This document shows, one piece after another, positions 3,315-17,906 of a stretch of DNA of 20,042 nt (positions are counted from its first letter, which is position 1; the number at the start of each line of letters is the position of its first letter). The stretch is from a virus: positions 1 to 20,042 of IMG/VR virus record IMGVR_UViG_3300023116_000464. One strand, written 5' to 3'. The position numbers and the translations under genes are program-made. Under the pieces are notes generated by a model. That model did no database searches. It had not been told where the DNA came from and was given only the letters and a program-made list of their open reading frames with translations.

Positions 3315-3340
3315 GTTGATCGCCGCCGTTGTGTTTGTTT

Positions 3341-3348
3341 GGTAAATA
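3341..3348 (+). promoter_or_regulatory. Putative late promoter (GGTAAATA)
   Basis: GGTAAATACC lies 13 bases before the ATG at 3362, in the 63-base gap between divergent genes. The variant matches those at 157 and 11771. The predicted start leaves about 8 bases of leader with no Shine-Dalgarno sequence. Confidence 0.55.
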
Positions 3349-3361
3349 CCAAAGTAGTATT

Positions 3362-6300
3362 ATGGCAATTAACAGAATAAGTGGTGATATATTAGAATCG
3401 AACCTTATCCGTTCGAGCGATCTGGCGTTCAATACCAATCTACTGTACGTGGATGTGGCAAACGGAAGGATCGGTGTAAAGACTGATTCACCGGGTAATT
3501 TTGCCCTAGATGTAAACGGTAACACACGGGTACAAGGTAACCAAACAATCACCGGAGACCTGACCGTACAGGGCACCACTACCACGATAGACTCTCAACA
3601 ATTAGTTGTCGAGGACAACATAATCACCATCAACGAGAACGCTTCAAGTGCCACGGACGCTGGTATAATGATCAACAGGACGTCTGCCAACAACGCCATT
3701 TTCATCTGGGACGAGACCCTAGACAAATTCAGATTTGGAACAACAACGCAGGATGGTTCCACGATCACAGACTATTCAAACTTAACTCTTTCAAACATAC
3801 AAGCGGCCGATCCCACAGCGGCCGAAGATGTCGCGACCAAGTCATATGTTGACAGCCAGATCAGTTCAGGAGGTGTGACAGGAGACAACGTTGAAATGAG
3901 GCTTCCAACAGACTCAACGTTCGGCGACGGTGCCTACCTCGGATTGACTTCGACCACTACCGTGACAAATGCCATAGACGAATTGAACGAAGTGCTTGGA
4001 AACGTACAGGCAGGGACCTACATAAAATCAACATCATTCGTGGCAGATGAAACTGCGATCAGCGCCGGTGACCCGGTGACACTGACAATCACCAACACAC
4101 CAACCGCGGGTGCCAACACCAGATACACCATCACCTGGGGAGACGGTGACGTCACAACGGGCACATCAGATTCAACACCAAGCCACACATACGCATCAGG
4201 TGGAACATACTCGGTCACAGTGAAAGCGTTTGAAAACGACGCGGACACGACGGATTCAGCGGGAAGTTTCGCGACATCTACCAGGACCGATTACATAGTG
4301 GCATCGACTGCAGAACCTGTGTTGACGTTCGCCATGTACGCGGCGGCATCGGGAGGTGATCCAATCACGACTGCGGACACAGGAGACACGGTGTACCTAC
4401 AGAACAACTGCACAAACACATCAGGTGCAACGGTCACATACGACGTCGACTGGGGAGACGGAACAGAAGACACCATCAGTGGTGACGGAGTGGCAGGTGG
4501 TTCAAGTGCGAACGGCGGATCACGTCTGGCGCACACCTACACAAACTCAGCAGGCGATGATGGATCAACGGTTGCAGGTACGGGTTCGGGTGACACCAAG
4601 TATGCAATACGTCTGAGACTACTGACACACTCGACTGCCAACCCGGCGGTGATTCCAAAGACGGCCACAAACAATTTCGAGGTGTATTCGGAACACACAC
4701 CACTTTATTCAACAGCAGATTCAACAATCAGAGGCGTCAACGAGGAATCAACATCAGGTTTCCCTGTGACGTTCACCAACGACACAGCGACGAATCCAGG
4801 TAGCAACTCAGATTTCAGTGCCACACAGACATACAGTTGGGACTTCGGCGAGGGTGCAGGCGCAACTGTGGTCAACATCGGATCGGGAGGTTCTGGAGAC
4901 ACGGGCAACACAATCGCAAACACATTCAACCTGAGTTCGGACAACCAGAACAACGGTACCACTACCACATTCACTACTAGCCTAACACTGGCGAATGGAC
5001 ACACAAATTCAACTTTCAGCAGTAACCTCAACATAATCGTTGAACCAGACGTGAGGGCCAACATCGCCGGCACGGCTGTCACAGTTAACACGGGTTCAGG
5101 TGACAACAGCCTATCATTGTATGACGTGGTCGACCTTGACGGTGTTAACAGGGCCATAGCAAGATTTACCAACACATCACAGAACGCGGACAACTACGAG
5201 TATGATTTCTTCGATGATTCCAGTTCTATCACTACTGTCGCTGAGGATGGATCCACAGCAGGAACAATCGGAGATGGTTCTGGTGTTGCTCTTGACAAGG
5301 ACTACTCAGGCACATCAACAGGAAATATCAACTTCAGATTTAGAGCATCTGGTACACCTGACACGATAGCACAAGACGACGAGGAAACCATCACATTTGT
5401 GATGAAATCGGTGCCAAGTGCACCAAATGGATTGAGCAGTTTCAGTTTGGCATTGTCAGACTCGGCACAGGGAACTTCACCCAAGTTGTGTGCAAGTTTC
5501 ACTGACAACACCAGTTCAGCAGACACACTGGCGGCGGGAACCTCATTGAATTCTACCACAGCGAGAAGATACACAAGCACATCAACCATTGACACAACCG
5601 TGATGAACGGTTTCCTAGTCAACGATGCCAATGGCACGGGTTCAACTGTTAACCAGACCGTCACAGCATCAATCAACGCCAGTGCCTCGGGTGCGAGGAC
5701 ATTCACAACCACAGAAGGTGGAGCCAACAACGGAACATTCACCAAACTGGTCACATCAGATCACAAGGACTATGACCAAGTGGACAGTTCATATCCACAG
5801 AGATTATACCTGGTCGCTGATGCCAAGATCACACAGGATCTAGCAGACTACTCGGTGGGATTGACTGCCCAGAGATTGGAAAGTTCAGCAGGTGGTAACA
5901 CGGGATATGTACACGTGTTGAAGGACGACATCACTGCGACACCTACAACAACGATAGGTACAGTGGCCGAGGGAACACAGGGAACCTACAGATATGTGTC
6001 CGGTGTGCCATACTACAACACAGGATCGCCAACTGTGACTGTCACTGGTACAACCATAGAGGACTTCACAGGACAGGCGTACCAAGACACCACATCACCA
6101 CACGAGGTAGACAACGACACCAACCAGGAATCAACTTCAGGCGATGTCATAACAAATTCAGATTTCACATACGCACAAGTAGATGGTGCTTCAACCATGC
6201 TGTCAGGTGGCGTGCCTGTGACAGACACGGGCGTTGGAACACCTTACACAATAGGAGCGGTGACAGTGCCCATAACGAGTTCAGGTGTGAGGTCAGTCAA

Positions 6301-9026: not shown

Positions 9027-9034
9027 AATAAATA
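9027..9034 (+). promoter_or_regulatory. T4-like late promoter (AATAAATA)
   Basis: AATAAATACC lies 46 bases before the ATG at 9081. The predicted leader of about 40 bases carries AAGGGGA at 9067-9073, 7 bases before the ATG. Here the promoter is paired with a normal ribosome binding site, unlike the short-leader promoters elsewhere. Confidence 0.7.
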
Positions 9035-9080: not shown

Positions 9081-11723
9081 ATGGCAATAGGACGAATAAC
9101 AGGACAGATGTTATCTGCCAACCTGGCTAGATCAGGCACAGATTTAACATTTGAAACAAATTTATTAGCCTTGGATGTGACCAACAGCAGAGTTGGTGTG
9201 GGAACGGCCTCACCGGCTACCACTTTACACATCTCAAGCACTGACGCACTAAGACTACCGTCAGGAAACTCAGCACAGAGACCAGGTTCACCGGCCAACG
9301 GTGACATCAGATACAACTCAGACACAGGTGCGGTAGAAGGATACGCGGGTGGCTGGTTGAAGATGACTGGTGGTACTGCACTGGCTGACGCAGACGCGGA
9401 CACACAGATCGAAGTGGAGAGAACCTCAGACGAGGACGCGATCCACATCCAGACAGCAGGCGTGGACAGGGCCCACTTCAGATCAGATGGTACGATAGAA
9501 TTGAACAACCTAAAGATCGACGACATGACGATCAGTTCCCTAACAACTAACGGAAACATCGCTATCACTCCAAACGGAACAGGTACTACTACGGTCACGA
9601 ACCTAGTGGTTGCTGGATCATTTGACCTAGGTGATCTAAACGCACTTAACGTTGGAGACATCAACGTTGACTCATTGAGTTCAGATGATGGCAACGGATT
9701 CGATCTATTATTAGACGACAACAAGGCCAACGCAATGGAGATCAAAGAGGGATCTAACGTGTACATGAACTTTGCTACAACCGACTCATCAGAGTTGATC
9801 ACTGTGAGCAAGGACATGACCATCGCAAGTGGTGTGACTTTCACAACAGACACGGCAGACATCAACGGTGGTGCCATTGACGGTACTACGATCGGTGGTT
9901 CAACTGCGGCGGCAGGTACGTTCACAACTGCAACGGCAACAAACGTACAGGCTACAAACTACAAAGCCAATGACGGAACAGCGGCCATGACGATCGCTGA
10001 CTCATCTGGAGACGTAAACGTTTCAACCAACTTCTCAGTCGACGGTAACTTGACTGTAAATGGAACCACGACAACGATTGACAGTGCTACATTGACAGTT
10101 GAAGATCCGCTTATCCAATTGGCTAAGAACAACTCAGGTGGAGATGCAAACACATTTGACCAAGGTCTATTCTTTAACAGGGGATCACTGGACAACGTTT
10201 CATTCATTTGGGACGAATCAGCGGACCAATTCGCTGTTGCTGTAACGGCATCAGAGGATGGAACAACAGCGGGTAACATCACAATTGACAGTTACGCGGC
10301 CTTCAAAGCAGGTGTAATCACTGCAACAGATGTTGAGACTGCAACAGTTTCAGCGGCAGACGGTACACTGGCCATGACAATGGCCAACTCAACTGGTGTC
10401 GTGACATTTAACGCGGCTCCTAGTTTTGGTGACAATAACATCACTAACGTGGGCGACATAGCACTAGACACAATCAGTGCTGATGGCACTACGATAGGTG
10501 TGTCAATGACTGACAACACAGCGGCGGCCTTTGACATCAAGGAAGGCTCAAACTCATACTTGAAGTTTGACACAACTAACAGTTCTGAGTTAATCACAGC
10601 AGGTGAAAACTTCACAGTTGCAAGTGGTAAGACATTAACAACAGACACTGCTGATATCAACGGTGGTGCAATAGACGGCACAACGATTGGTGCCAACAGT
10701 GCCGCGGCGGCGACTTTCACAACTGCCACTGCAACATCTGTTAATGCCACAAACTACAGAGCTAACGACGGAACAGCGGCTATCGTACTCACAGACTCAA
10801 CAGGTGCTGTAGCGATATCAACAGCAGTGTCAATGACTGGTGCTGTTGACGTAAACGGTGGTAACTTCACATTCAATGAAGATTCTGCTTCGGTAGATGC
10901 TAGATTTGAATCCAACGGTGACACACACGCTTTATTCATCGATGGTTCAGAGGACCATGTTGGTGTAAGAACAAGTTCACCAGCGTATGACTTAGACGTG
11001 GGTGGTTCAACAGATGCGTTGAGACTACCAAACGGTACGACGGGTGAGAGACCAACCGGTGCAACTGGTTTGATCAGATTCAACACAACGACTGGAAAAT
11101 ACGAAGGTTGTCAGGATGGATCCACTTACGTTGACTTTGCGACGGCGGGCGACGCTCCAACTTTCACAAAAGAATCAACAACAGGTGACGGATCTACTAC
11201 AACGTTCACTGGTTTCTTCAGCACTGCTCCAGAATCAGCGAACAACGTTTTCGTTTACATCGACAACGTGTACCAAGAACCAACTGAAAACTACAGTGTT
11301 TCAGGCACAAACATAACATTTACTTCTGCCCCTCACTCGGGTGCGAGGATATTTGCTATCACTGGTGCTGACAACAGTGCGTTGGTGACAGGTGGTGTTG
11401 CTAGATCAGAGACATCAGCGGTATCTGTGTCAGGTTCAAGTGCGGTGACGATCATGAGCTTTAATGCGGCCACTTACAGAGCGGCGGAATTGTTCATTGC
11501 CACACAGGACTCAGGTAACACGCAGTACGCGGCCATGAAGGCCACTGTGGTGCATGATGGTTCAACTGCTTACGGTACAACTTACGCAGTTGTTAACTCA
11601 GCAGGTGGAGACATCGTTGACATATCGTTTGAACACGATGGATCAAACACGGTGAATGTGAAAGCGACTCCATTGAACTCGGGCACACAGAGTGTCAAAG
11701 TTCAGTACTCGTTAGCACAGTAG
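9081..11723 (+). CDS. Large modular tail fibre (880 aa)
   Basis: The start is set by AAGGGGA 7 bases upstream and by MAIGRITGQMLSANLARSG matching the N-termini of the fibres at 3362 and 13573. Modules in order: shared N-terminal block (1-45); RPGSPANGDIRYNSDTG block (67-92); first copy of a 104-residue repeat (213-316); GNLTVNGTTTTIDS block with QGLFFNRGSLDNVSFIWDES (322-400); second repeat copy (478-581); a second RPTGATGLIRFNTTTGKYE block (656-683); STTGDGSTTTF...VFVYIDNVYQEPTENY block (700-761); and a C-terminal ~95-residue domain (about 786-880) related to the triple repeat of the 13573 fibre. It is Thr/Ser/Gly/Asn-rich with no signal peptide or membrane segment, as expected for a trimeric beta-structured fibre. 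A strong terminator follows 36 bases after the stop. Host-receptor binding is inferred. Confidence 0.88.
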   Translation: MAIGRITGQMLSANLARSGTDLTFETNLLALDVTNSRVGVGTASPATTLHISSTDALRLPSGNSAQRPGSPANGDIRYNSDTGAVEGYAGGWLKMTGGTALADADADTQIEVERTSDEDAIHIQTAGVDRAHFRSDGTIELNNLKIDDMTISSLTTNGNIAITPNGTGTTTVTNLVVAGSFDLGDLNALNVGDINVDSLSSDDGNGFDLLLDDNKANAMEIKEGSNVYMNFATTDSSELITVSKDMTIASGVTFTTDTADINGGAIDGTTIGGSTAAAGTFTTATATNVQATNYKANDGTAAMTIADSSGDVNVSTNFSVDGNLTVNGTTTTIDSATLTVEDPLIQLAKNNSGGDANTFDQGLFFNRGSLDNVSFIWDESADQFAVAVTASEDGTTAGNITIDSYAAFKAGVITATDVETATVSAADGTLAMTMANSTGVVTFNAAPSFGDNNITNVGDIALDTISADGTTIGVSMTDNTAAAFDIKEGSNSYLKFDTTNSSELITAGENFTVASGKTLTTDTADINGGAIDGTTIGANSAAAATFTTATATSVNATNYRANDGTAAIVLTDSTGAVAISTAVSMTGAVDVNGGNFTFNEDSASVDARFESNGDTHALFIDGSEDHVGVRTSSPAYDLDVGGSTDALRLPNGTTGERPTGATGLIRFNTTTGKYEGCQDGSTYVDFATAGDAPTFTKESTTGDGSTTTFTGFFSTAPESANNVFVYIDNVYQEPTENYSVSGTNITFTSAPHSGARIFAITGADNSALVTGGVARSETSAVSVSGSSAVTIMSFNAATYRAAELFIATQDSGNTQYAAMKATVVHDGSTAYGTTYAVVNSAGGDIVDISFEHDGSNTVNVKATPLNSGTQSVKVQYSLAQ
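9717..10823 (+). repeat. Two-copy 104-residue in-frame duplication
   Basis: Unit 1 is 9717-10028 and unit 2 is 10512-10823, offset by 795 bases (265 codons). Both encode a DN..A....IKEGSN.Y......T.SSELIT start, the identical DTADINGGAIDGTTIG core, FTTATATxVxATNYxANDGTAA, and end in ...ST. The aligned length is 104 residues with no gap. DNA in the units differs at many third positions, so the duplication is not very recent. Confidence 0.85.
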
Positions 11724-11758
11724 ACGAATAAGCAAAACTAGACCCTAAAGATAATTCT

Positions 11759-11799
11759 AAACGCCCCGATGGTAAATACTATTGTTGGGGCGTTTTTTT
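11759..11799 (+). terminator. Rho-independent terminator with a long loop
   Basis: AAACGCCCC (11759-11767) pairs perfectly with GGGGCGTTT (11787-11795) around a 19-base loop. Seven Ts run from 11793 to 11799. It ends the 9081 fibre unit. The loop holds a late-promoter-like motif. Confidence 0.88.
11771..11778 (+). promoter_or_regulatory. Putative late promoter inside a terminator loop (GGTAAATA)
   Basis: GGTAAATACTATTG lies in the loop of the terminator at 11759-11799. It is the only late-type motif between the 9081 and 11847 genes. The predicted start near 11784 would fall next to the right arm, so the new transcript would not carry the full hairpin. Confidence 0.5.
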
Positions 11800-11846
11800 A
11801 CGGTCTAACACTAAATCAATAATAATCATGCGGGAGATATGGAACC

Positions 11847-13415
11847 ATGACAACAAGAAACTTTAGAGTAAACAACGGTCTTTCAGTTGGTGACATCACT
11901 ATAGATGCAACAGCAAACACGATCGTGGGACTGGCGACAGCGGCACCAAGTGCTGACGGTGACGTCTCAAACAAGAAATACGTAGACGATCAAGATGCCT
12001 TAATAGCATCGGACACGCTCACGTTCACAAACAAAACAATAGACGCGAATGGCACAGGAAACAGTATTACAAATTTAGAAGTGGCAGATTTTGCTGGTTC
12101 GGCCATCATTAACGTATCAGAGACACTGGCATCAAATGATTCAGACACCGCTTTGGTGACTGCTGGTGCCATCATTGACTACGTTGACGCACAGGACGCC
12201 AACATAGCATCAGACACGTTGACATTCACAAACAAGACATTTGACGCAAACGGCACAGGCAACTCGATCTCAAACATAGAGACTGCGGACTTCGCCAGTG
12301 CGGCATTCAAGGACGAGGACGACCTGTCATCAAACAGTGCCACAGCAGTTGCTTCACAACAGTCGATCAAGGCCTACATTGACAACGGACTATCAAGTCT
12401 GTCATCAACTACACTGACAGCGGGCAACACCACAGCGGTGGTTTCTGACTCAGGTTCAGACGGTGCGTTCACAGTAACTTGTGACGGTAACAGTGAACTA
12501 GTCGTGAACGACACAAGTGCCACATTCTCAGGTAACGTGATCGTGTCAGGAAACTTCACAGTCAACGGTACAACTACAACAGTTGCCACAACCAACACAA
12601 CAAACACTGACAACATCTACGAACTTGCTACAGGTACCACAGGCACACCAAGCAACGACGCAGGTATAGTGATCGAGAGGGGTGATTCAAACAACGCCTT
12701 CATCGGTTTTGATGAGTCGGAAGACAAGTTCAAAGTTGGTACAGGTACTTTCACAGGTGCGTCAACAGGTAACCTGACAATCACGACAGGTACTTTGATA
12801 GCGAACCTAGAAGGTGACGTGACCGGTGCAGTAACAGGTAATGCTGACACGGCAACGGAAGCAACAAACGTGACTGTGACGGCCAACAACAGTGCCAACG
12901 AGACTGTTTACTTGACATTCGTTGACGGAGCAACTGGAACACAGGGTATCGAAACAGACACTGGTCTAAGTTACAACCCATCAACCAACGTTCTATCAAC
13001 CACTGCATCAGCGGCACAGTACGCGGACGTGGCGGAGCGTTTCGAAGCAGACGCTCCTATGGAAATTGGTTCAGTTGTAGAAGTAGGTGGTACAGCAGAG
13101 ATCACGGAAGCAACTTCAGATCTATCTGAGGATGTTTTTGGAGTTATCTCTGACAAACCAGCATACATGATGAACGCAGGTGCAGGTGACAACACCACGC
13201 ACCCGTTCGTTGCTATGACAGGTAGAACACCAGTTAGAGTGATCGGTGAGGTTACAAAAGGTCAAAGACTTGTTACTTCATCAACAAAAGGTTGTGCTAG
13301 AGCAGTGGCGCAGGGCGAGTCAATCTCTCCTTTCAACGTCATTGGTAGAGCACTGGAATCTAACACAGAAGCAGGTATCAAATTGGTAAACTGTGCTGTG
13401 AGGACCAACAACTAA
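11847..13415 (+). CDS. Tail fibre with Peptidase_G2-like C-terminal domain (522 aa)
   Basis: The start at 11847 follows GGGAG (11832-11836) by 10 bases. The N-terminus (MTTRNFRVNNGLSVGDITID) differs from the MAIxRI fibres, suggesting a different docking site. Residues 50-86 and 117-153 are a tandem IASDTLTFTNKTxDANGTGN repeat. Residues 232-300 hold the VSGNFTVNGTTTTV and DAGIVIERGDSNNAFIGFDE segments of the common fibre block. Residues 323-387 (GDVTGAVTGNADTATEATN, TFVDGATGTQGIETDTGLSYNPST) are typical of marine phage fibres. The C-terminal ~130 residues (AQYADVAERFEAD, VVEVGGTAEIT, FGVISDKPAYMMN, GRTPVRVIGEVTKGQRLV, NVIGRALE) resemble the Peptidase_G2 / intramolecular-chaperone-like domain, which in some phage appendages self-cleaves after trimerisation. 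Cleavage here is not shown. A terminator follows. Confidence 0.87.
   Translation: MTTRNFRVNNGLSVGDITIDATANTIVGLATAAPSADGDVSNKKYVDDQDALIASDTLTFTNKTIDANGTGNSITNLEVADFAGSAIINVSETLASNDSDTALVTAGAIIDYVDAQDANIASDTLTFTNKTFDANGTGNSISNIETADFASAAFKDEDDLSSNSATAVASQQSIKAYIDNGLSSLSSTTLTAGNTTAVVSDSGSDGAFTVTCDGNSELVVNDTSATFSGNVIVSGNFTVNGTTTTVATTNTTNTDNIYELATGTTGTPSNDAGIVIERGDSNNAFIGFDESEDKFKVGTGTFTGASTGNLTITTGTLIANLEGDVTGAVTGNADTATEATNVTVTANNSANETVYLTFVDGATGTQGIETDTGLSYNPSTNVLSTTASAAQYADVAERFEADAPMEIGSVVEVGGTAEITEATSDLSEDVFGVISDKPAYMMNAGAGDNTTHPFVAMTGRTPVRVIGEVTKGQRLVTSSTKGCARAVAQGESISPFNVIGRALESNTEAGIKLVNCAVRTNN
11994..12305 (+). repeat. Two-copy 37-residue in-frame repeat
   Basis: Unit 1 is 11994-12104 and unit 2 is 12195-12305, offset by 201 bases. 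Both encode IASDTLTFTNKT-x-DANGTGNSI followed by NxExADFAxxA. Repeats of this type are common in phage fibre shafts. Confidence 0.8.
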
Positions 13416-13442
13416 TAAATATCTCTACTTTTTAGTAGAATC

Positions 13443-13474
13443 AAAGGGCGGCTCTAGGGTCGCCCTTTTTTTTT
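13443..13474 (+). terminator. Rho-independent terminator
   Basis: AAAGGGCG (13443-13450) pairs with CGCCCTTT (13461-13468) around a 10-base loop, and nine Ts run from 13466 to 13474. A small TCTACT/AGTAGA hairpin (13424-13439) sits just upstream. The next late promoter starts 5 bases after the T-run. Confidence 0.9.
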
Positions 13475-13479
13475 AGGCG

Positions 13480-13487
13480 TATAAATA
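13480..13487 (+). promoter_or_regulatory. T4-like late promoter (TATAAATA)
   Basis: This is an exact match to the T4 late consensus TATAAATA. It lies directly after a terminator and 85 bases before the ATG at 13573. The predicted start near 13493 gives a leader of about 80 bases that carries two Shine-Dalgarno sequences. Confidence 0.82.
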
Positions 13488-16463: not shown

Positions 16464-17906
16464 CTATGGGGTTGTGGCGTCAAGGCTTGAGTTGTATCCT
16501 GGATCCGCTCCACCATCAAGCACTATGCTCCAATTACCTTGTGTGTACACGCCTTCATAGGATTTGACCCATTCCGTGCCATTGAACCTGTACTGAATAC
16601 CTGTGTTGAGATTGGTCACGTAGTGTTGTGTTGAATCTGGATTGCTGGCGTCAAATGCCACATTCCATTTTGATGTTGAACTGTTGTATTCTATGATGTC
16701 TCCAACGCTGGCCACTAATGTGCCCCATGTCTGACTCTGGAAACTGGCTGTCGAGTCTCCAACATCATTGATCACCAGATATCTGTCACCATTCACAGGT
16801 GTGCCTGGATCAAATGTTGCTGGATTTATTATTTTTTTTACCGCTGTAAGAGAATTGCTTGGTATTGTGTCCCCGTCTATTGTGTACAATAGAATCGTAT
16901 CATCCAGCGTTGATGTTGCTATGGTGCCAACTATCTCATTTCCGTTTGGTTGTGTCAGTCTTATCTGTGATGTGCCGTTTGTCACTTTACCATATTGATC
17001 TAACAGTACCTTCCAGTTCACTGCTGGTCCAAATGTTTCGAAAGGATCGTAGTTGCTTGGTTCGTTCGCACCTGTGTGGAATCCATCTCCTCCTGATTTG
17101 ACATTTGTGCCCGTTGAACCTAGTAATCTTAGTTGGTTACCTGTAACCAATAATCCAAAGTTGTTTGGTGTGATGTAACTCCTAGATGTAAGTTCCCCGT
17201 CTATCAATCCTTTGGCTATGCCGCCATCGTCATCGTATATGCTCATTATGATTTTTTGTACCACACCTAATTTCTTAACTTTCACCGGTGGTGATAACCA
17301 TATTGGCATTGAGAAGGTCAGTGTTGCGACATCTATCTCTGAATCTGCCCCAACAGGTATGGTCCTCGAACTGAACGTTGTTCCTGTCAATTCAACGTAA
17401 CTCAAACTGGTCCAGTCGATGTAGTTGTCCGTTTTCTGTATCTCAAAGTCTGGGTTGAACAGATACAATATCTGTTCCATGATCTGCAATTTCTGATCTG
17501 TGTTTGTTGTCCAGATGTCCGCCGACACTTCCAACCTGAACGGAGATGGCATCACTTTCTCAACTGTGTAACCTGCACCCATCTCATTGGTGTAGTTGCC
17601 GTCCGAGTCTATGCCTCTTTCTCTCAAATGCTGTTTCTCTATGTGATAAGGATTCTGCATCCTGTCCCTGTCGTAGTTTAATTCCCTTACATACGCCGCT
17701 ATCCTAGGTGCGTACTGTAGTGCGTTCTCTGAGTTGTTCCTTATTATGTTTGCAACCTGTCTTGTTGGGTCACCATACACCACCGGCACTGCCCTTAATT
17801 GTACGGAACCGTCACTGCCTTTGCCTGTCTCCACAGAGAAGTTACTCAAGATCCTAATGAATTGAGTGAGAAATTTCCTGACCTGTCCTTCGTAAAAATG
17901 CAACAT
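16464..17906 (-). CDS. 15: gp15-like tail sheath stabiliser / head-tail joining protein (480 aa)
   Basis: The first ~215 residues match the T4 gp15 pattern: MLHFYEGQVRKFLTQFIRIL, LRAVPVVYGDP, a YTVEKVMPSPFRLEVSADIWTTN strand, QKLQIMEQILYLFNPDF, and a SMPIWLSPPV element. gp15 caps the tail tube and contracted sheath and joins the tail to the neck. At 480 aa it is far longer than the 272-aa T4 protein. The extra C-terminus includes DPGTPVNGDRYLVINDVG (366-383), VGDIIEYNSSTSKWNV (401-416) and GIQYRFNGTEWVKSYEG (436-452), which resemble DUF2793-type carbohydrate-module sequence. The ATG is 2 bases after the preceding stop codon (TAA AC ATG), so translation is coupled. The neighbouring gp14 gene supports the call. 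The role of the extension is unknown. Confidence 0.88.
   Translation of the reverse strand: MLHFYEGQVRKFLTQFIRILSNFSVETGKGSDGSVQLRAVPVVYGDPTRQVANIIRNNSENALQYAPRIAAYVRELNYDRDRMQNPYHIEKQHLRERGIDSDGNYTNEMGAGYTVEKVMPSPFRLEVSADIWTTNTDQKLQIMEQILYLFNPDFEIQKTDNYIDWTSLSYVELTGTTFSSRTIPVGADSEIDVATLTFSMPIWLSPPVKVKKLGVVQKIIMSIYDDDGGIAKGLIDGELTSRSYITPNNFGLLVTGNQLRLLGSTGTNVKSGGDGFHTGANEPSNYDPFETFGPAVNWKVLLDQYGKVTNGTSQIRLTQPNGNEIVGTIATSTLDDTILLYTIDGDTIPSNSLTAVKKIINPATFDPGTPVNGDRYLVINDVGDSTASFQSQTWGTLVASVGDIIEYNSSTSKWNVAFDASNPDSTQHYVTNLNTGIQYRFNGTEWVKSYEGVYTQGNWSIVLDGGADPGYNSSLDATTP

Follow-up and report, generated by a model that had tools for sequence, protein, structure and literature searches.

The segment at positions 11759-11809 probably both insulates two late tail genes of a T4-like myovirus from each other and restarts transcription between them, by means of a gp55-type late promoter nested in an intrinsic terminator. 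It lies in a 20,042-base IMG/VR fragment of an uncultured virus, referred to here in its full length as the window, which covers a structural and tail region of such a phage. Directly visible in the sequences are the hairpin, the T-tract, the promoter motif, the conservation of all three together while the stem covaries, the rule that the motif is either nested or free, and the complementarity of arms B and C (Table 1). Besides the genes of Table 1, the window encodes a MutT/Nudix gene, a head-tail adaptor Ad2 (gp13-like) gene and several fibre-like genes, and a sigma gene is absent from this 20-kb fragment. By protein, the nearest named relatives are large myoviruses, e.g. PA5oct, Phosso and Atu_ph07, at about 35% identity. 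A nucleotide megablast of the region against named phages gave zero matches, and the 45-nt element used as query matched named phages at chance level only. IMG/VR is rich in relatives of both genes flanking the 11759-11799 element. A Pfam search of these two genes (880 and 522 aa) returned no domains.

Table 1. Coordinates, in the window, of the nested element and of the genes discussed in the text.
Feature	Position	Strand	Remarks
Arm A, left arm of the terminator hairpin, AAACGCCCCGATGGTA	11759..11774	+	
TAAATA, late-promoter core (-11 to -6), at the hairpin apex	11773..11778	+	Invariant in relatives
Right arm of the terminator hairpin, TATTGTTGGGGCGTTT	11780..11795	+	
Predicted transcription start +1 (G), six bases past TAAATA	11784	+	Predicted from T4 geometry (PMC1524935), the -1/+1 pattern and the 5' hairpin edge
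Arm B, portion of the right arm, also 5' side of the late transcript's hairpin	11784..11793	+	
T-tract of the intrinsic terminator, also loop of the alternative B:C hairpin	11793..11799	+	Seven T's
Arm C, ACGGTCTAAC, pairs with arm B in the transcript from 11784	11800..11809	+	
GGGAG, likely Shine-Dalgarno of the downstream gene	11832..11836	+	Outside the A:B and B:C hairpins
Upstream late gene, 880 aa, fibre-like	9081..11723	+	Weak PHROG tail-fibre hits
Downstream late gene, 522 aa, fibre/tail-pin-like C-terminus	11847..13415	+	
Tail-sheath-family gene	16464-17906	minus	

When folded as RNA, the 11759-11795 segment pairs over 16 bp and leaves a loop of five bases, AATAC (-21.5 kcal/mol; z -5.7), and none of 200 shuffles folded as well. 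The stem is stable and GC-rich and runs directly into a U-tract, as in an intrinsic (Rho-independent) terminator; the automated terminator scan of the window missed it. The initial annotation had placed the late-promoter motif in an open 19-base terminator loop. Its coordinates, inverted repeat, seven T's and motif (GGTAAATACTATTG, confirmed at 11771-11784) stand, but the supposed loop is itself paired, with GATGGTA matching TATTGTT inside it and only the five apical bases left open. Bidirectional termination at 11759-11799 was also considered and was rejected, the minus-strand tail being only TTT. The 880-aa gene stops at 11723 and the next ATG is at 11847; the 123-nt gap that separates them includes AAACGCCCCGATGGTAAATACTATTGTTGGGGCGTTTTTTT. 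A scan of this gap found no second TAAATA, which agrees with the earlier claim that the motif is the only one of late type before the downstream gene. On its plus strand the gap holds a single sigma70-like match, a weak one (9/12, at 11797-11826), and an Rfam search of 11700-11860 returned no family above the gathering score. A TAAATA dropped at random into the gap would have a chance of about one in four of landing within the 37-nt hairpin; nesting in one phage is therefore weak evidence, and it is the relatives that carry the argument.

The T4 late promoter is TATAAATA at -13 to -6, with position -13 variable in relatives, and that of S-PM2 was reported as NATAAATA (PMC1524935, PMC2984593). 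In the phages compared here, the gene strand has 9.3 copies of TAAATA per kb in the non-coding stretches directly before genes versus 0.08 per kb in coding DNA, a 112-fold enrichment; only one other hexamer is equally enriched there, with one-tenth the count. Of 16 relatives' records, seven, from long relatives, encode a gp55-family late sigma factor (E values down to 1e-86), and the seven include the records of L055 and L064, both carriers of the nested element. Compared with the T4 octamer, the nested site has the invariant core and GG rather than TA at -13/-12, a departure also seen at the window motif sites 159 and 3343. Nested promoters have G at -13 and mostly G at -12, whereas free ones have A at -12 in 62%; given the G at -13/-12, nested promoters may be weaker than free ones. 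With +1 taken as the base six positions after TAAATA, free promoters favour a pyrimidine at -1 and A at +1, and all nested sites carry a pyrimidine at -1 and a purine at +1. Two yardsticks were discarded. The upstream motif rate cannot serve as the expectation for nesting, because it is itself set by these promoters. Outside T4-like phages, bare nesting does not serve as evidence for a late promoter, since scans for TAAATA flanked by CCCC/GGGG or AGCC/GGCT arms match many contigs without upstream TAAATA enrichment.

The loci fetched from relatives were scanned and yielded 340 T-tailed hairpins, 47 of which enclose TAAATA. All 47 stand at the same kind of junction, 9-39 nt past a long upstream frame and usually 45-63 nt before the next ATG (outliers 21 and 91), and in none of them does a further TAAATA occur between the hairpin and that ATG. 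A pattern scan found the nested element in 46 contigs, one per contig. More than 40 distinct versions occupy the same junction in IMG/VR relatives, and the check in related phages that the initial annotation had proposed came out in its favour. In 40 aligned copies TAAATA never varies and the stem does; the stem types include CGCCCC, CGCCCT, CGCTCT, ACTCCC, CCCCTTACGG and CCTCTTACGG, with a matching partner for each. In 39 distinct rows, 95.1% of the cells are paired versus 86.6% after shuffling and at most 64% when slid, and 8 of the 16 stem pairs have changed on both sides (45 cells), a level reached by 0 of 500 shuffles; the relatives share ancestry, so that shuffle and permutation counts are not probabilities.

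The homologous gene family supplied 89 distinct upstream regions. The motif lies in the terminator without any other copy in 45 of them and as a free, non-nested copy in 44, and no region has both or neither. In L007 a terminator stands at the same junction with no TAAATA in its loop, and a separate free TAAATAC follows downstream; this locus is a natural control. Some relatives have lost one part of the element, a point against the nested-element reading. The hairpin of L066 (8130-8158) is retained by pairing (GTTCTAGCGGTAAATATTACTGCTAGGAC) with the T-tract lost. L031 (8097-8200) and L067 (1031-1130) have no T-tailed hairpin but keep the GGTAAATAC promoter, and in both a strong hairpin (GCAATAGAACGTTCTATTGC) begins at the predicted +1.

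The third arm concerns the late transcript itself. An RNA starting at 11784 is predicted to fold GUUGGGGCGU (11784-11793) with ACGGUCUAAC (11800-11809), leaving the U-tract as the loop, and it could not rebuild the terminator because arm A is missing. The first base is paired in the predicted late transcript of 40 of 44 distinct relatives. When the RNA was folded with six extra 5' bases, the 5'-most pair fell at -1 or +1 in 48 of 53 sites, and no comparable hairpin edge at +1 was seen at free promoters. This sharp edge is independent support for the predicted start at 11784. Within one sequence type of 31 members the B:C match beats permuted partners (8-9 of 20,000, counts that kinship keeps from being probabilities), and L050, L057, L060 and L069, with other stems, keep the B:C pairing with different letters. 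The idea that late transcripts in general begin with a hairpin at +1 finds no support at free promoters (32 of 219). A role of arm C as antiterminator was also dropped, since C would be transcribed only after the release point.

A 5'-terminal stem-loop can stabilise bacterial mRNA, as for E. coli ompA and papA (works cited in PMC3997798). For this reason the B:C hairpin is likely to protect the mRNA 5' end. The ompA and papA stem-loops likewise form from the first transcribed base; the difference is that here one arm of the 5' hairpin doubles as the right arm of the terminator before it.

The proposed course of events is as follows. A polymerase coming from the 880-aa gene would make the A:B hairpin and the U-tract and terminate near 11795-11802. 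A late polymerase with a gp55-type sigma would initiate at 11784 from the TAAATA inside the hairpin. Its transcript, lacking arm A, would not terminate itself but read on through the T-tract, and would fold B with C from its first base, by which the mRNA 5' end is plausibly protected. The initial annotation had proposed that upstream transcripts end here and that new ones start without a complete hairpin. The comparative evidence favours this reading, namely the invariant TAAATA in a covarying stem (40 relatives), the nested-or-free rule (89 regions), the pyrimidine-purine step at -1/+1 and the second hairpin at the predicted start. The 880-aa gene has its own TAAATA at 9029. The 522-aa gene is ended by the T-tailed hairpin 13443-13468, after which TATAAATA, running from 13480 with its TAAATA at 13482, would start the next gene. 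On this evidence each tail gene probably forms a late transcription unit of its own, with the boundary at the present element squeezed to about 45 bases.

Late promoters inside hairpins that sequester the ribosome site are established for T4 gene e, I-TevI/II/III and segB, and for Aeh1 mobE (PMC3014915, PMC2988022). As in the gene e/I-TevI type, the late promoter here lies within hairpin DNA, and long upstream RNAs would form the hairpin while late ones would not. In contrast, those hairpins block translation, whereas the GC stem and U-tract of 11759-11795 should stop transcription, and the ribosome site GGGAG lies outside both hairpins. Our scan of T4 recovered the e hairpin and found no convincing T-tailed nested terminator on the gene strand. 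The same kind of scan gave none in Syn9 and KVP40 and weak non-canonical hits only in HTVC008M and P-SSM2. In DSL-LC02 there is one nested terminator, whose right arm also contains a ribosome site. S-PM2 has an element upstream of gp13 (AAATCCCTATCTGATAAATACAGGTAGGGATTTTT) that resembles ours in that TAAATA sits in a T-tailed hairpin a few nucleotides past the upstream stop and before a structural gene; it differs in being a single site in S-PM2, with an unrelated gene and stem, and we found no publication remarking on it. The PeSL cassettes of T4-like phages reportedly combine early (sigma70) promoters with terminators. They are alike in joining a terminator and a phage promoter in a short intergenic module; the promoter at 11759-11799 is of late type, unlike the early ones of PeSLs, and on this point the element does not fit that class.

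Burying late promoters in translation-blocking hairpins is thus already known for T4-like phages, and the terminator version, repeated in unrelated stems, suggests a general design; a literature search of partial coverage found no paper describing late promoters inside terminators. Such a design would let the phage pass from the end of one late message to the start of the following one in about 45 bases. Selection visibly maintains promoter and terminator in one shared run of letters, which apparently also serves as the 5' end of the next mRNA. It is also a warning for annotation: a tool that predicts only terminators, or only promoters, will overlook or misplace half of such an element. A tighter version was seen in other IMG/VR contigs (L277, L220, L313, L230, L259, L300, L317, L316, L280, L260, L322, L243 and L267). 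There TAAATA lies in the terminator loop, the right arm is the Shine-Dalgarno sequence and the T-tract is the spacer, the ATG usually following 18-25 nt past TAAATA; CCCCCTCTTTCtaaataTAAGAAAGAGGGGGATTTTTTATG of L277 is an example, and the downstream genes include gp13-like and gp5-like ones.

Other explanations of the arrangement have to be weighed. Promoter and terminator might overlap by mere chance in a short gap, as the one-in-four rate of random placement would allow, and a T-tailed nested case is indeed missing from Syn9 and KVP40 and, bar weak hits, from the gene strand of T4. Chance is already contradicted by relatives that are far from near-identical, more than 40 distinct ones keeping the nesting with covariation and never with a second motif, and we regard it as extremely improbable. 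The hairpin might instead act mainly as a 3'-end stabiliser, with TAAATA a conserved loop recognised as RNA and no promoter at all. Stem-loops can protect 3' ends, and the loop is invariant in relatives. This does not agree, however, with the single arrangement per gene, nested or free, in the 89 regions, with the strand-specific 112-fold enrichment of TAAATA upstream of genes, or with a second hairpin that begins at the predicted +1, and such a role is very unlikely. The block might also be a recombination cassette, the late-gene counterpart of the PeSLs, in which promoter and terminator provide homology for fibre-gene swaps and regulation is secondary. The element does sit between fibre-like genes whose length differs widely among relatives, and the L007 junction resembles a fusion of the terminator block with another gene's tail and free promoter. 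Recombination, however, does not require a stem that covaries around a fixed TAAATA, and we consider this account unlikely.

A further possibility is termination-coupled reinitiation, by which the polymerase freed at the T-tract would slide back about 15 bp to the nested late promoter, and expression of the downstream gene would rise together with that of the upstream one. Once intrinsic termination has occurred, E. coli polymerase moves along the DNA by diffusion and can initiate again at promoters close by, whether downstream or upstream (PMC6978380), and the predicted start is only about 10-15 bp from the release point. On the other hand, recycling was shown for the sigma70 polymerase in vitro and not for initiation that depends on gp55 and a clamp, and free promoters 0-20 nt past terminators, which are equally common in these phages, would serve recycling as well; coupling of this kind is therefore doubtful here. 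The combined reading is likewise improbable, in which this recycling is added to the double use of arm B (as 3' side of the terminator of one mRNA and 5' side of the hairpin that would protect the next) and adjacent late genes share the polymerase that slides back. In any case the element offers a natural system for asking whether a terminated polymerase is recycled.

Some other sites of the window bear a resemblance to the nested element. The initial annotation had compared it with two terminator-like hairpins, 722-746 and 13443-13474; the latter holds as a T-tailed terminator (13443-13468), but the former has no T-tract. The 722-746 hairpin (GGGGGAG...CTCCCCC) is strong, has CCCCCATTCACAACA on its 3' side and stands just before the TAAATA at 755; it may act at a 3' end or in RNA processing instead of as an intrinsic terminator. 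Another TAAATA (13416-13421) overlaps the stop region of the 522-aa gene and, if active, would give an RNA of only about 45 nt; because it lies upstream of the 13443-13468 terminator, it is unlikely to be a productive promoter. An Rfam freshwater-2 cis-regulatory RNA (RF02980, 77.9 bits) was detected at 183-268, directly upstream of the gene at 266, with a GGTAAATAC motif at 157-165 just before it, and a late promoter there may drive this RNA. At 3325-3366 a weaker hairpin (-11.9 kcal/mol) without a T-tract carries GGTAAATACC at its apex and spans the likely ATG of the 3329-7060 gene, an arrangement resembling that of T4 gene e.
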